Assembly: GCF_012927455.1 (NCBI RefSeq)
Contig: NZ_JABBPE010000010.1
Coordinates: 1 to 64,000, forward strand
Direction of reading: 5' to 3'
DNA from: Polaromonas sp.
GTDB taxonomy: Bacteria > Pseudomonadota > Gammaproteobacteria > Burkholderiales > Burkholderiaceae_C
DNA length: 64,000 nucleotides
This document shows positions 5,561-11,813 of the stretch, piece after piece. Made by a program: the position numbers and the translations under genes. A model generated the notes under the pieces. It was not told the origin of the DNA. It was given only the letters and a program-made list of their open reading frames with translations, and did not search any database. Positions within the stretch are counted from its first letter, which is position 1. Each line of letters opens with the position of its first letter.

Positions 5561-7099
5561 TCACCCCTGCGCAGCAACCCGATCAGCTTTACTTTGAAGT
5601 TTATTTAGCGCGCTGAGGTAGGCCTTGGCTGACGCGACCACGATATCGGGGTCGGCGCCCACGCCATTGACCACGCGTCCGCTGTTTTGCAGGCGTACCG
5701 TCACCTCTCCCTGGCTTTCCGTCGATCCGCTGATCGCATTGACTGAATAAAGCACCATCTCCGCACCACTATTGACGTGTGACTCAATCGCCTTCAGGGT
5801 GGCATCGACGGGGCCGTTGCCGTCCGATTCACCCCTGACTTCCTTTCCCTCGACGGTGAAGACGACACTGGCTTGTGGGCGCTCACCGGTTTCACTGTGC
5901 TGTGACAGGGAGACAAAGCCATATTGCTCTTTATCGTGCGTGACGCTTTCGTCGCTGACCAGCGCCAGAATGTCCTCGTCGAAAATCTCGCTTTTGCGGT
6001 CTGCGAGTTCCTTGAATTTGGCGAACAGGCTGTTGATGTCGGCCTCACTCTCCGACTGCACGCCGAGGTCTTGCAAGCGCTGCTTGAACGCGTTGCGGCC
6101 ACTAAGCTTGCCCAGCACAATTTTGCTGGCGCTCCAGCCCACATCTTCTGCCCGCATGATCTCGTAGGTCTCACGCGCCTTCAGCATGCCATCCTGGTGA
6201 ATGCCCGAGGCGTGGGCAAAGGCATTGGCGCCTACCACCGCCTTGTTGGGCTGCACCACGAAGCCAGTGGTCTGGCTGACCATGCGGCTGGCAGCCAGAA
6301 TATGCAGCGGTTCGATATTCATATCCAGGTTGAAATAGTCCTTGCGGGTTCTCACCGCCATGACGATCTCTTCAAGTGAACAGTTTCCTGCACGTTCACC
6401 CAGCCCATTGATGGTGCATTCAACCTGACGCGCGCCGCCTATCTTCACGCCGGCCAGCGAGTTGGCGACCGCCATGCCCAAGTCGTTGTGGCAGTGCACC
6501 GACCAAATGACCTTGTCGCTGTTGGGAATGCGTTCGCGCAGCGTTCTGATGAAGTTGCCATACAACTCAGGCACTGCGTAGCCTACGGTGTCTGGCACAT
6601 TGATGGTCGTGGCGCCCTCGTCGATCACGGCCTCCAGCACGCGGCACAGGTAGTCGACATCGCTGCGGAAGCCGTCCTCGGGACTGAACTCGACGTCGGC
6701 TACCAGGTTTCGCGCGAAACGAACCGACAACCTGGCCTGCTCCAGCACCTGTTCGGGCGACATGCGCAGCTTTTTTTCCATGTGCAGGGCACTGGTAGCG
6801 ATAAATGTGTGAATGCGCGCGGAGCGGGCGCCCTTGAGCGCCTCGGCGGCCCGCGAAATGTCTCGATCATTGGCGCGCGACAGTGAACAAACGGTGCAAT
6901 CCTTGATTGCATTTGCGATCGCTTGCACCGCCTCGAAGTCGCCGTTGGAACTTGCTGCAAAACCTGCCTCAATCACGTCAACTTTCAATCGCTCCAACTG
7001 GCGGGCAATACGCAGTTTCTCGTCTCTGGTCATGGAGGCGCCAGGTGATTGTTCGCCGTCACGCAAGGTGGTGTCAAAAATAATCAATTTGTCGGTCAT
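5561..7099 (-). CDS. leuA: 2-isopropylmalate synthase, standard bacterial form
   Basis: The enzyme condenses acetyl-CoA with 2-oxoisovalerate, the first committed step of leucine synthesis, in the cytoplasm. The 512-residue protein shows the HMGL-like TIM barrel with [14 protein letters not shown] (7-20) and the metal-binding HCHNDLG (202-208), followed by the C-terminal LeuA dimer domain that mediates leucine feedback. Length is typical of E. coli-type enzymes. A GGAG ribosome-binding site precedes the ATG. It lies 45 bp downstream of a second, more diverged leuA and probably shares its transcript. Confidence 0.95.
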
Positions 7100-7144
7100 G
7101 AAAAGCTCCGGGTGCGCTGCTAGCTGTATGTGGGGAAAAGTGAG

Positions 7145-8839
7145 TCAGTACGTCATGGCGGTTGTCTTAGCGCCTTTCCCGGCATTGCTTCGTTTCAGAC
7201 CCGAGACGATGGCCTTGAGCGATGCAGAGACAATATTGCCATCCATGCCGACGCCGAACAGCGTCTGGCCGTTGATGCACAACTCCAGGTAAGCCACCGC
7301 CTGCGCGCCAGCACCGGAGCCAATTGCATGCTCGTGGTAATCAAGCACGCGAACTGAAAGGCCGGTCGCTGCATTGAGTCCCGCGATAAAGGCGTCAATC
7401 GGGCCCGTGCCCGCGCCTGCAATCGGGTGGGGGCTGCCGCCCAGCCACACCTCGGCCTTGATGTTGAACGTCCTGCTGCCAGCGCTCCCGATTTCCTGGA
7501 TCACCAGATGCTGTGGTGCGGCGATGGTTTGTACGCCGTATTCCTTTTCAAACAACGCAAAAAGGTCTTGCGCTGTCAATTCCTTGCCGCTGGCGTCCAT
7601 GACGGTTTGTACAACCTGGCTGAATTCGATCTGCAGGCGCCTCGGAAGCTCAAGGCCGAACTCGCTTTCGAGTAGATAAGCAATACCGCCCTTGCCCGAC
7701 TGGCTGTTGACGCGGATGACGGCTTCATAGCTGCGGCCCAGATCTTTCGGGTCGATCGGAAGATACGGCATGTCCCAGAGGTCCTCCTCCCTGCGCGAAG
7801 CGAACGCTTTCTTAATCGCGTCCTGGTGCGAGCCCGAGAACGAGGTGTAGACAAGGTCGCCGGCATAAGGGTGGCGGGGATGGACCGGCAACTGGTTGCA
7901 ATGCTCGACCAAGCGGCGGATATCGTCAATTTTCGAGAAGTCCAGGCCAGGTGAGACGCCTTGCGTGTAGAGGTTAAGCGCCACGTTGACAAGATCGACG
8001 TTGCCGGTCCGTTCGCCGTTGCCGAAAAGGCAACCTTCGATACGGTCGGCGCCAGCCATCAAGGCAAATTCACCCGCTGCCGTACCTGTTCCCCGGTCGT
8101 TGTGTGGATGAACCGAAAGCACGATGGCCTCGCGCCGCGCCAGGTGGCGGTGCATCCACTCCATCATATCCGCAAAGATATTGGGCGTTGAATGCTCTAC
8201 CGTCGACGGAAGGTTGATGATGCATTTGTGCTGGGGCGTAGGCTGCCAGACGCTGGTTACCGCATCGACGACACGTTTGGAAAATTCAAGTTCGGTGCCC
8301 GACCACATTTCAGGCGAATATTGGAATGTCCACTGCGTGCCGGGGTGTTCGTCGGCCAAATGCATGAAGAGACGCGCGTTGTCGGTGGCGAGCTTTACGA
8401 TTTCGTCTTCGTCCATGCCAAGCACGACGCGGCGCATGACGGGGGCGGTGGCATTGTAGAGGTGGACGATGGCCTTTTGGGCGCCTTTTAGCGACTCGAA
8501 AGTGCGGCGAATTAGCGGCTCGCGGGCCTGCGTGAGCACCTGAACAGTGACGTCGTCAGGGATGAGTTTGTCATCTATCAGTCGGCGAAGAAAGTCGAAT
8601 TCGACCTGCGAGGCCGAAGGGAAACCGACCTCAATCTCTTTAAAGCCGATTTTTATGAGGGTATCGAACATTTTGAGTTTGCGCGGGATGTCCATGGGCT
8701 CAATCAGGGCCTGGTTACCGTCGCGCAGGTCGACGCTGCACCATACCGGCGGACGCGTCAACACGGCATCGGGCCAAGTGCGACCGACCAGACGGATCGG
8801 GGGGAAGGACTTATATTTGCTCGAAGGGGTTTTCAACAT
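7145..8839 (-). CDS. leuA: 2-isopropylmalate synthase, long (actinobacterial/yeast-like) form
   Basis: This second IPMS is only distantly similar to the one downstream. It is about 564 residues if it starts at ATG 8839 ([12 protein letters not shown]); ATG 8845 is two codons longer. It has [13 protein letters not shown] instead of [20 protein letters not shown] as the metal site, and a C-terminal regulatory domain ending in a Gly/Ser-rich region with [12 protein letters not shown]. These are features of the long LeuA subfamily. A leucine-rich leader ORF and a terminator stand between it and pssA, indicating attenuation control. Having both forms in tandem suggests different feedback sensitivities; that is inference. 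Confidence 0.93.
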
Positions 8840-8880
8840 GGTCATCTTCTTAACTCGAATTTCAAAACTTGGCAACCCAA

Positions 8881-8916
8881 TAAAAAACGACCCGTTGCTG
8901 GTGCAAACGGGCCGTT
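8881..8916 (-). terminator. attenuator terminator of leuA
   Basis: Read on the minus strand, AACGGCCCGTT and AACGGGTCGTT form an 11-bp stem with one G-U pair, followed by six T residues. It lies 22 bases after the leader peptide stop and 41 bases before the leuA start. The 5' arm contains GCCCG, complementary to CGGGC in leader codons 13-15 (8950-8954). That gives a simple competing antiterminator helix if a ribosome stalls on the upstream Leu codons. Confidence 0.85.
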
Positions 8917-8938
8917 GAATTGGGTGTACGCGTACGCG

Positions 8939-8992
8939 CTACCGTCTTCGCCCGATGGCAGGTAGCAGTAGTACTAACGAAATTTTTTTCAT
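8939..8992 (-). CDS. leuL: leuA leader peptide (17 residues)
   Basis: The short frame from ATG 8992 to TAG 8939 encodes MKKISLVLLLPAIGRRR: four Leu, one Val and two Ile in 17 residues. The Leu codons are TTA, CTA, CTG and CTA, and the Val codon is GTA; TTA, CTA and GTA are rare in a genome this GC-rich. A GAAGG ribosome-binding site precedes the ATG closely. It starts 19 bases after pssA ends. Its composition, position and the downstream terminator fit a classical ribosome-mediated leucine attenuator. Confidence 0.85.
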   Translation of the reverse strand: MKKISLVLLLPAIGRRR

Positions 8993-9011
8993 ACCTTCAA
9001 TATACCATGAT

Positions 9012-9824
9012 TTATTTGTGAAGACCGCGCTCATCCGGCTCGTCGGTCGACGTGGAAATGACGCTGGTCTGCAAGCCCTTGGCCTTGCGCCAGCCGTACA
9101 GTACGTATCCCGATAAGCCATAGACAACAAACAAGCCGAACATCACAATTGGCGGATGGATGTTGATCGCTGCGATCCCCAAGGCGATCAGCACGATCAC
9201 CACGAAGGGCACGCTGCGCTTCATCTGCACGTCCTTGAAACTGTAGAACGGCACATTGGTCACCATGGTGAGCCCGGCGTACAGGGTCAAGCCGAACGTA
9301 TACCAGCGCACCTCTAGCCCTGTGAAGCCAGCGTCGGACATCAGCCAGATAAAACCGGCTACGAGAGCCGCCGCTGCCGGTGAGGGTAAGCCCTGAAAGA
9401 AACGCTTATCTACTACTGCGGTATTGACGTTAAAACGGGCCAGCCTTAGCGCGGCACAGGCGCAATAAACGAAGGCGCCAATCCAGCCCCAACGTCCTAA
9501 ACTGGTGAGAGCCCACACATAGGCTATCAGAGCGGGTGCGGCCCCGAAAGACACCATATCGGACAGAGAGTCCATCTGCTCGCCAAAGGCGCTTTGGGTG
9601 TTGGTCATGCGGGCGACTCTTCCATCAAGGCTGTCGAGCACCATGGCGCAAAAAACGCCAATGGCAGCCTGATCAAATTTGCCGTTCATCGCCATGACGA
9701 TGGCGTAAAAGCCACCGAACAGCGCCGCGAGCGTGAACAGGTTAGGCAGTATGTAGATGCCTTTGCGACGCTTGCGTACCACCACCTCATGTGTCATCGA
9801 ACCGGATTCCTCGCCATCATGCAT
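9012..9824 (-). CDS. pssA: CDP-diacylglycerol--serine O-phosphatidyltransferase
   Basis: PssA makes phosphatidylserine, the precursor of phosphatidylethanolamine, at the inner membrane. The protein has the CDP-alcohol phosphotransferase signature DSLDGRVARMTNTQSAFGEQ followed by MDSLSD, supplying the four metal-binding Asp residues, and about eight hydrophobic membrane segments. I chose ATG 9824 because AGGAG lies 8 bases before it; an in-frame GTG at 9845 would add seven residues. In betaproteobacteria pssA commonly sits between ilvC and leuA, as here, although it has no role in amino acid synthesis. Confidence 0.95.
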   Translation of the reverse strand: MHDGEESGSMTHEVVVRKRRKGIYILPNLFTLAALFGGFYAIVMAMNGKFDQAAIGVFCAMVLDSLDGRVARMTNTQSAFGEQMDSLSDMVSFGAAPALIAYVWALTSLGRWGWIGAFVYCACAALRLARFNVNTAVVDKRFFQGLPSPAAAALVAGFIWLMSDAGFTGLEVRWYTFGLTLYAGLTMVTNVPFYSFKDVQMKRSVPFVVIVLIALGIAAINIHPPIVMFGLFVVYGLSGYVLYGWRKAKGLQTSVISTSTDEPDERGLHK

Positions 9825-9863
9825 AAAAAAACTCTCCTGAAGCACAACTGGTGCGCGAAAACA

Positions 9864-9880
9864 GCTATAAATACGATAGC
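9864..9880. repeat. palindromic core of dispersed repeat (GCTAT-N7-ATAGC)
   Basis: The sequence GCTATAAATACGATAGC lies between pssA and ilvC and matches the palindromic core of the approximately 60-bp dispersed repeat family described in the findings. The longer tail of the repeat is not recognisable here. Confidence 0.5.
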
Positions 9881-10022
9881 AAGTCGGATTCTACTGCCCA
9901 TAAATGACACGCTGGGCAACAATGCGCCCCTGAATTATTCACTGTCCAAAGGTAGCAAGCCAGCGGTTCAACTGCTTAATGTGACTGCACGCTGCAGGCA
10001 GATACCAGTTTGCTTTCAACAT

Positions 10023-11694: not shown

Positions 11695-11813
11695 ATTGAG
11701 TAGATTCCTCTTTTCGGTGCCCTCCCCGTCCGGCGGTAACCGAACGGCTTGGCAGCCAATAGATTCTTCGGGTTGTCATGCCGGACTTGATCCGCCATGA
11801 CAGGCTTTTTGTC

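Follow-up and report, generated by a model that had tools for sequence, protein, structure and literature searches.

The leu leader of Escherichia coli and Salmonella works by transcription attenuation and encodes a 28-residue peptide with four Leu residues, as outlined in PMC6123439. A rare-codon Leu peptide, LeuL, again of 28 residues, precedes leuABCD in Campylobacter jejuni and other Epsilonproteobacteria (PMC3847290), and the actinobacterial LEU element, found upstream of leuA, combines a leader ORF carrying a Leu run with further RNA pairing, including a pseudoknot (PMC1262725). In S. meliloti trpL, the leader mRNA starts at the AUG, and the terminated product, rnTrpL, is a small leaderless mRNA (PMC7298713, PMC10117765). 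No description of a betaproteobacterial leuA leader was found in the literature searched, the scope of which leaves out subscription papers, above all Vitreschak et al. 2004, which is cited in PMC6123439.

Here, we describe a leader ahead of leuA in a window of 64,000 nucleotides, the whole stretch of DNA analyzed, from Polaromonas sp. (contig NZ_JABBPE010000010.1). Its start site, ribosome stalling, termination, and leucine response are inferred from its codons, possible structures, conservation, and the position of a promoter motif, and on these grounds we consider it very probably a transcription attenuator before leuA that has its own promoter and responds to leucine through the translating ribosome. 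Like the E. coli and Salmonella leader, so far as the cited account describes it, it has Leu codons in a short peptide, a terminator before leuA, and alternative pairings; unlike that leader, its peptide has 17 residues, it has an extended -10 element of its own and no Shine-Dalgarno sequence, its mRNA is probably leaderless, it matches no Rfam leader, and most relatives examined carry an extra segment, segment 5. With C. jejuni LeuL, in the features which that report gives, it shares the rare-codon Leu peptide and a short RNA, ending there behind the stop codon, whereas a ribosome binding site, of which there is none here, was part of the basis for predicting the LeuL orthologues (PMC3847290). 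The likeness to the actinobacterial LEU element rests on its description rather than on sequence comparison, and in the relevant parts of that account, it is the leuA Shine-Dalgarno box that its Leu codons pair with, and classical attenuation is considered unlikely (PMC1262725). As in S. meliloti trpL, the leader mRNA would run from the AUG, a reading that is based here on the -10 position and the lack of a Shine-Dalgarno sequence; trpL, as portrayed in the sources above, concerns tryptophan in an alphaproteobacterium, and its start site and trans action are demonstrated, whereas here the start site is predicted from the sequence and a trans action is a somewhat unlikely possibility. The kind of switch is classic; what sets this one apart, with no claim to priority, is the form conserved among the relatives examined, the probable leaderless start, and the extra paired segment that is usual among relatives.

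Gene Row and Leader

The leader, the terminator, and leuA all lie on the minus strand, the first two ahead of the leuA start at 8845, in a minus-strand gene row that we take to run ilvB, ilvN, ilvC, pssA, leader, long leuA, and a second, shorter leuA-like gene. The features are as follows.

11702-11769, minus strand: ilvH RNA (RF02993), 85 bits, directly before ilvN
9012..9845, minus strand: pssA-like gene (ORF), upstream of the leader
8999..9007, minus strand: candidate extended -10 promoter element TGGTATATT, ending 6 nt before the leader ATG
8939..8992, minus strand: leader peptide ORF MKKISLVLLLPAIGRRR, ATG 8992-8990, 17 codons, TAG 8941-8939
8963..8977, minus strand: control codons 6-10, TTA GTA CTA CTG CTA (Leu Val Leu Leu Leu)
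8926..8974, minus strand: 1:2 hairpin, Leu codons paired with the stop-codon region (MFE fold)
8950..8954, minus strand: segment 2 core CGGGC (codons 13-15), predicted 5' strand of the antiterminator
8908..8912, minus strand: segment 3 core GCCCG, predicted 3' strand of the antiterminator and 5' arm of the terminator
8882..8916, minus strand: intrinsic terminator, hairpin 8916-8886 (AACGGCCCGTT..AACGGGTCGTT) and T-run 8887-8882
8872..8876, minus strand: degenerate segment 5 (GTTGC), apparent remnant of the commoner GTTGCTGGT, only 5 bp
7145..8845, minus strand: long leuA (ORF), 566 aa, the presumed controlled gene
5561..7099, minus strand: second, shorter leuA-like gene, 45 nt downstream of the long leuA

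We take the 566-aa product of 7145..8845 to be 2-isopropylmalate synthase and the ORF at 9012..9845 to be pssA-like. The long and short leuA-like genes of the window (5561-8845) share 26% identity and are probably cotranscribed. The ilvH RNA is a cis-regulatory RNA in the same ilv-pss-leu row and a separate element before ilvN. A scan of 13 leuA loci also placed it upstream in 5 of them, the other loci often being too short to reach it. No leader before ilvB was recognized in the window by eye.

Conservation and Distribution

The upstream set comprised 89 leuA regions, namely, the window, 79 of 80 named loci, and 9 other loci; since the 80 loci are the best of 534, they are near relatives. One locus with only 28 nt upstream (L089) was unused, as were L002-L007, whose contigs each match in length that of one of the named loci. 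The nearest named relatives of the window leuA among these best 80 of 534 loci are Polaromonas, and the nearest row on the leuA tree is Polaromonas sp. P2-4. By the rules of our script, a homologous short leader that contains a Leu run and has a terminator after it precedes leuA in 80/89 regions. Five regions were without a leader under this rule (L013, L014, L016, L086, and L087), and four were set aside for another ORF picked or another leader type (L011, L012, L015, and L100); of these, L086, L087, and L100 do carry such a Leu-rich leader, which the start, run, or picking rule missed. Because L064 and L104 are duplicates, 78 distinct leaders remain, from which alignments of 53 main-class rows (A1) and 58 rows (A2) were made. 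The commonest form in Comamonadaceae is, by eye, close to MNRISLALLLSPHGRRR, and leaders of Roseateles and its kin carry ...LLLLGEPRVR or ...EEPRVR.

A covariance model built from the 53 main-class rows (relatives plus the window) finds a single copy in the whole window genome. Of the 12 genomes of the same family that an order-wide draw listed, 11 have the element; across the order, at E 0.01, it is found in 33/399 genomes, with many matches weak. Among near relatives, 33/61 carry the element, and 32 of these fall among the 37 genomes of the genus group, the window included. According to coordinates compared by eye, and with several of the genomes incomplete, the long leuA follows the element in 9/32 genus-group genomes; in 21/32, a search detected no long leuA, and the gene behind the element is the short leuA-like one. 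The last two are a partial match (G002) and an odd contig (G012), and one genome (G034) has two elements, one ahead of each leuA type. The presence of the same element, in 21 relatives, before a short leuA-like gene that is distantly related to the long one indicates that the switch follows leuA function, and it suggests that in these short-only relatives the long leuA was lost with the switch retained. The odd contig (G012:C280) holds mirror-image leader copies at 427-579 minus and 2536-2688 plus, probably an assembly artifact.

In other families, a Leu-rich ORF precedes 28/49 long leuA genes under a loose rule (3 Leu in 6 residues) that carries no chance control; the count derives from 52 regions chosen from 65 places, 3 of them in the same family. 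Leaders of very different makeup, such as ...LLLRPART and ...LLRLAR, were seen before leuA in other Burkholderiales families (for example, L145, L147, L154, and L177), most of those picked having a -10-like hexamer 6-9 nt before the ATG. If our reading is correct, leader-peptide leucine control at leuA would be general in Comamonadaceae, with other forms elsewhere in Burkholderiales. The covariance model can now serve annotation, and no Rfam family matched the element in the window or the 13 relatives scanned.

Rare Leu Codons

The preliminary description of this locus reported a leader with four Leu codons, three of them TTA/CTA, and a Val GTA, and the sequence of MKKISLVLLLPAIGRRR agrees, with Leu codons TTA, CTA, CTG, and CTA at positions 6, 8, 9, and 10 and Val GTA at position 7. 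It further held all of the TTA, CTA, and GTA codons to be rare. For Leu this is borne out, as TTA and CTA account for 11 and 19 of 416 Leu codons (together 30/416) in 14 hand-picked window genes; GTA, at 39/343 Val codons in the same genes, is only moderately uncommon. The window has a G+C content of 58.8%. At window usage, the chance of at least three TTA/CTA among four Leu codons is ∼0.0014, a post hoc figure.

Conservation of the Leu codons among relatives, which had been named as a check, is apparent. The 319 Leu codons of the 78 leaders comprise 187 CTA, 99 CTG, 13 CTT, 8 TTA, 8 CTC, and 4 TTG, whereas CTA makes up 3/3327 Leu codons in the neighboring leuA genes, counted over their first 1500 bases for 75 of the 78 leaders. 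Pairing with the TAG stop could explain part of the constraint on CTA. However, 12/80 leaders end in TGA, which is not the complement of CTA, and each still has two or three CTA codons; moreover, CTA fills 79/157 main-class Leu codons when the last is excluded. Selection for rare Leu codons therefore stands. Counting against the attenuator model, codon 10 is non-Leu in some relatives (e.g., CCA in L045 and ATC in L066).

Predicted Promoter and Start of the Message

A TGnTAnnnT motif ends 6-13 nt before the leader ATG in 80/80 leaders, the window included, and within 6-8 nt in 76/80; the distances are 6 nt (15 rows), 7 nt (50), 8 nt (11), 9 nt (2), 10 nt (1), and 13 nt (1). Elsewhere, 22,219 positions gave 2 matches. 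The -10 rule was then applied to 22 further leaders, a second set that precedes the short leuA-like gene and played no part in making the rule; the motif lies at 6 nt (12) or 7 nt (10) in 22/22. Among 20 leaders picked from the survey of other families, 19 of them outside this family and its nearest, the shorter TAnnnT ends 6-9 nt before the ATG in 16 and does not in 4, against a background of 0.13 per position.

In the window, the -10 element is situated just beyond the pssA-like stop codon. The leader had been placed after pssA and not at an operon start. The second point is probably wrong: with a conserved extended -10 ending 6 nt before its ATG, the leader most likely opens a separate transcription unit where pssA ends, and a promoter of its own explains its place there. 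We also considered a plainer origin, in which the hairpin does no more than terminate the pssA transcript and the short ORF arose by chance. The hairpin does sit after pssA, where it would end pssA read-through. Among the aligned leaders, however, the DNA further upstream of the -10 has no shared columns, while conservation over 80 leuA upstream regions extends to the ORF, the Leu codons in it, and the -10, and the same element stands before the other leuA-like gene in the 21 relatives described above; we therefore hold a plain pssA terminator to be extremely improbable.

For a leader with its own promoter, the position of the motif bears on the first base of the message. The -10 would put +1 on or next to the A of the AUG, and in the window +1 is predicted to be the A itself. 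The base preceding the leader ATG is C in 57, T in 15, G in 8, and A in 0 of 80 leaders (pyrimidine in 72/80), and a pyrimidine-purine context is usual at transcription start sites. Positions 18 to 3 ahead of the ATG (16 nt) contain a Shine-Dalgarno match of at least 4 bases from our own motif list in 0/80 leaders; in the window leader, GAAGG ends 1 nt before the ATG, a spacing unusable as a Shine-Dalgarno sequence. At leuA starts, a Shine-Dalgarno sequence is found in 42/80 with a slightly wider list (GAGA added) over 22 nt, and this wider list accounts for part of the contrast with the leaders. The simplest reading of the -10 position and the lack of a Shine-Dalgarno sequence is that the leader mRNA is probably leaderless. 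Should leaderless mRNAs prove the rule for these leaders, translation starting at a 5'-terminal AUG would be part of an amino acid sensor over much of the order.

RNA Structures and Proposed Switch

The window contains a Leu-rich leader ORF (4 Leu of 17), an intrinsic terminator, and a mutually exclusive antiterminator, and its 146-nt stretch 9015-8870 folds better than 200/200 shuffles (z -3.78). A strong terminator had been noted 22 bases past the leader stop; it begins exactly 22 nt beyond it, and its hairpin has a computed energy of -18.7 kcal/mol, with a median of -21.4 kcal/mol over 78 rows. The complementarity proposed between CGGGC (8954-8950) and GCCCG (8912-8908) is confirmed letter by letter, the window antiterminator being only 5 bp. 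The architecture had been called simpler than the enterobacterial leu leader. This does not hold, as a 1:2 hairpin of the Leu codons holds segment 2, and the logic is the classic one compressed. In this hairpin, the TAG stop pairs with a CTA, namely, codon 10 in the window fold and codon 8 in the consensus, and in the consensus form 97.8% and 95.3% of cells are paired in its two helices (A1, 53 rows).

In the attenuator that we favor, RNA polymerase would start on the leader AUG or no more than one or two bases from it, and a ribosome would make the 17-residue leader. When leucyl-tRNA is ample, the ribosome would reach the TAG and cover segment 2, leaving segments 3 and 4 to form the terminator and transcription to stop before leuA. 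If the leucyl-tRNA that reads the rare CTA/TTA codons runs low, the ribosome would stall at codons 6-10 and open the 1:2 hairpin; segment 2 would pair with segment 3 before segment 4 exists, the terminator would fail, and leuA would be transcribed, here probably with the second leuA-like gene. In most relatives examined, segment 5, present only in the read-through RNA, could then pair with the loop of the terminator and with its 3' arm.

Once the RNA is complete, computed stability favors the terminator over the antiterminator by ∼11 kcal/mol, even when the leader is masked, so the attenuation model needs co-transcriptional order. Whole-RNA MFE folds cannot show the switch because the terminator wins in every state in 4/5 sequences and in all but one state in the fifth (L093); prefix folds, of the RNA up to the terminator loop, were used instead for 76 leaders (L092 and L102, without a GGG core, were excluded). 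When the first or the last Leu codon occupies the ribosomal A site, the probability of the antiterminator is at least 0.5 in 71/76 and 73/76 prefixes, respectively, in keeping with the leucine attenuator and antiterminator named in the preliminary description. With the ribosome at the stop, the corresponding count is 0/76, largely by construction because segment 2 is masked there. Without a ribosome, the antiterminator is preferred in 23/76 prefixes, the window included (0.99), so termination here would need translation to the stop.

Covariation of the terminator and antiterminator pairings had also been proposed as a check. The pairing itself is kept, in 99.0% of cells for the terminator (53 rows) and 89.5% for the antiterminator, whereas both-sided changes are few and antiterminator covariation is slight, and the check tells little about either helix. 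The 1:2 hairpin and terminator together have 98.0% standard pairs, with 3 both-sided changes in 2 pairs (53 rows), and the RNAalifold covariation term is small (-0.49). One compensation occurs in L084 and L085, where a terminator pair changes from C-G to U-A and the antiterminator keeps a G-U. As the alignments read, the strong conservation signals are the Leu codons, the -10, and the covariation in the downstream 4:5 helix, a feature absent from the preliminary description.

A structured 5' RNA ahead of a biosynthetic gene would also be expected of a metabolite riboswitch or T-box, which would sense a small molecule or uncharged tRNA directly and make the ORF incidental. We give this explanation next to no weight, since the codon-level signal is strong and no Rfam match falls at the site in the window or 13 relatives; an Rfam leader, riboswitch, or T-box identity was accordingly rejected for the leader site. 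In the 13 relatives, the Rfam matches are to ilvH RNA only, elsewhere than the leader site. The Rfam leucine operon leader, which we take to be the name of the enterobacterial family, has no match in window positions 8000-10000 at E up to 5 and no gathering-score match in the whole window or the 13 relatives.

Segment 5, a Probable Helix beyond the Terminator

In most rows, segment 5, past the T-run, is complementary to the loop of the terminator and its 3' arm (ACCAGCAAC and others). Its forms are GTTGCTGGT, GCTGCTGGT, GTCGCTGGT, GCTGCGGGT, GTTGCGGGT, and others. The resulting 4:5 helix is at least 7 bp in 60/78 rows and in 19/22 second-set leaders, one of which (L219) is probably a chance match. 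It is shorter than 7 bp in 18/78 rows, the window included, with 7 changes of this state on the tree and the attenuator not lost. Judged from these complementarities, the 4:5 pairing is likely, and segment 5 is, by its remaining letters, decayed in the window genome. If so, a conserved RNA helix past the terminator would be a candidate for an added function.

Both-sided changes occur at 5/9 pairs of the 4:5 helix (25 cells, with 84.7% of cells paired), and 17 of the 25 cells are A-U to G-C at columns 117-145. For the antiterminator and 4:5 helix jointly, both-sided changes and covariation score exceed those of all 500 shuffles and all slid versions. Over the 49 rows with a helix there, the leuA tree shows 8 changes in the pair state at column 117 (A-T, G-C, and one T-G). 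The mean score of each loop with its own segment 5 is 19.9, compared with 14.9 when swapped, and 0/5000 permutations are as high; relatedness inflates this difference, and the partners were chosen as the best fit. A tree-based test of independent pairs offers only 1-3 pairs per site on starred branches; none were opposite at sites 117, 116, and 113, and at site 111 some random pairings were.

The first role considered for segment 5 is in cis, where it would pair with segment 4 in the read-through RNA and keep the antiterminated fold. The both-sided changes point this way, and because column 117, the most variable pair, lies inside the terminator arm, the 4:5 helix competes with the terminator. 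Against this, the helix is computed to favor the antiterminated state by only ∼0.5 kcal/mol (median), the 4:5 probability is at least 0.5 in 23/59 rows (median 0.14), accessibility of the leuA start site is unchanged at the median (0.53 and 0.53), and the helix is short in the 18 rows above without attenuator loss. We regard a cis role as possible but on balance doubtful. In the window, the leuA start site is computed to be less accessible when antiterminated (0.26 vs 0.58). A thermodynamic lock and a mask on the leuA start were both rejected as functions of segment 5, the computed effect at the median being small for both; the spacing of 11 to 33 nt argues against a DNA operator palindrome.

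The same complementarity would serve a pseudoknot with the intact terminator loop in read-through RNA or make segment 5 a trans target of the terminated leader sRNA. The loop part alone has a median of -11.75 kcal/mol, with 2-9 nt of loop before it, and segment 5 ends 18-35 nt ahead of leuA (60 rows); the S. meliloti trp attenuator RNA, in the part of the work that treats it, is leaderless and acts in trans (PMC7298713). Sequence alone does not separate cis from trans, and we rate this pseudoknot or trans role as somewhat unlikely. A second, overlapping terminator ending in segment 5 would fit the T-runs that follow it in several Polaromonas (e.g., L037 and L046) and in most of the second set. 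It is very unlikely, since the T-run is not conserved, with 0-1 T in the next 8 nt in 24/60 rows, and such a terminator would halt transcription in the starved state.

A broader reading combines two layers, co-transcriptional termination and post-transcriptional tuning of leuA mRNA translation or decay through segment 5. In it, the terminated leaderless mini-mRNA (∼110 nt), or the terminator hairpin in cis, would loop-pair with the conserved segment 5 just ahead of the leuA start, and the window lineage would have lost this layer. We consider the two-layer combination unlikely.

The rows with a short 4:5 helix differ in form. In L055, L056, L060, and L065, 5 bp are followed by a mismatch inside an otherwise similar segment 5 stretch. 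A 10-row clade (L040, L042-L045, and L047-L051), mostly metagenome-assembled, offers a ready comparison for the role of segment 5, as it keeps the leader and terminator and is without the segment.
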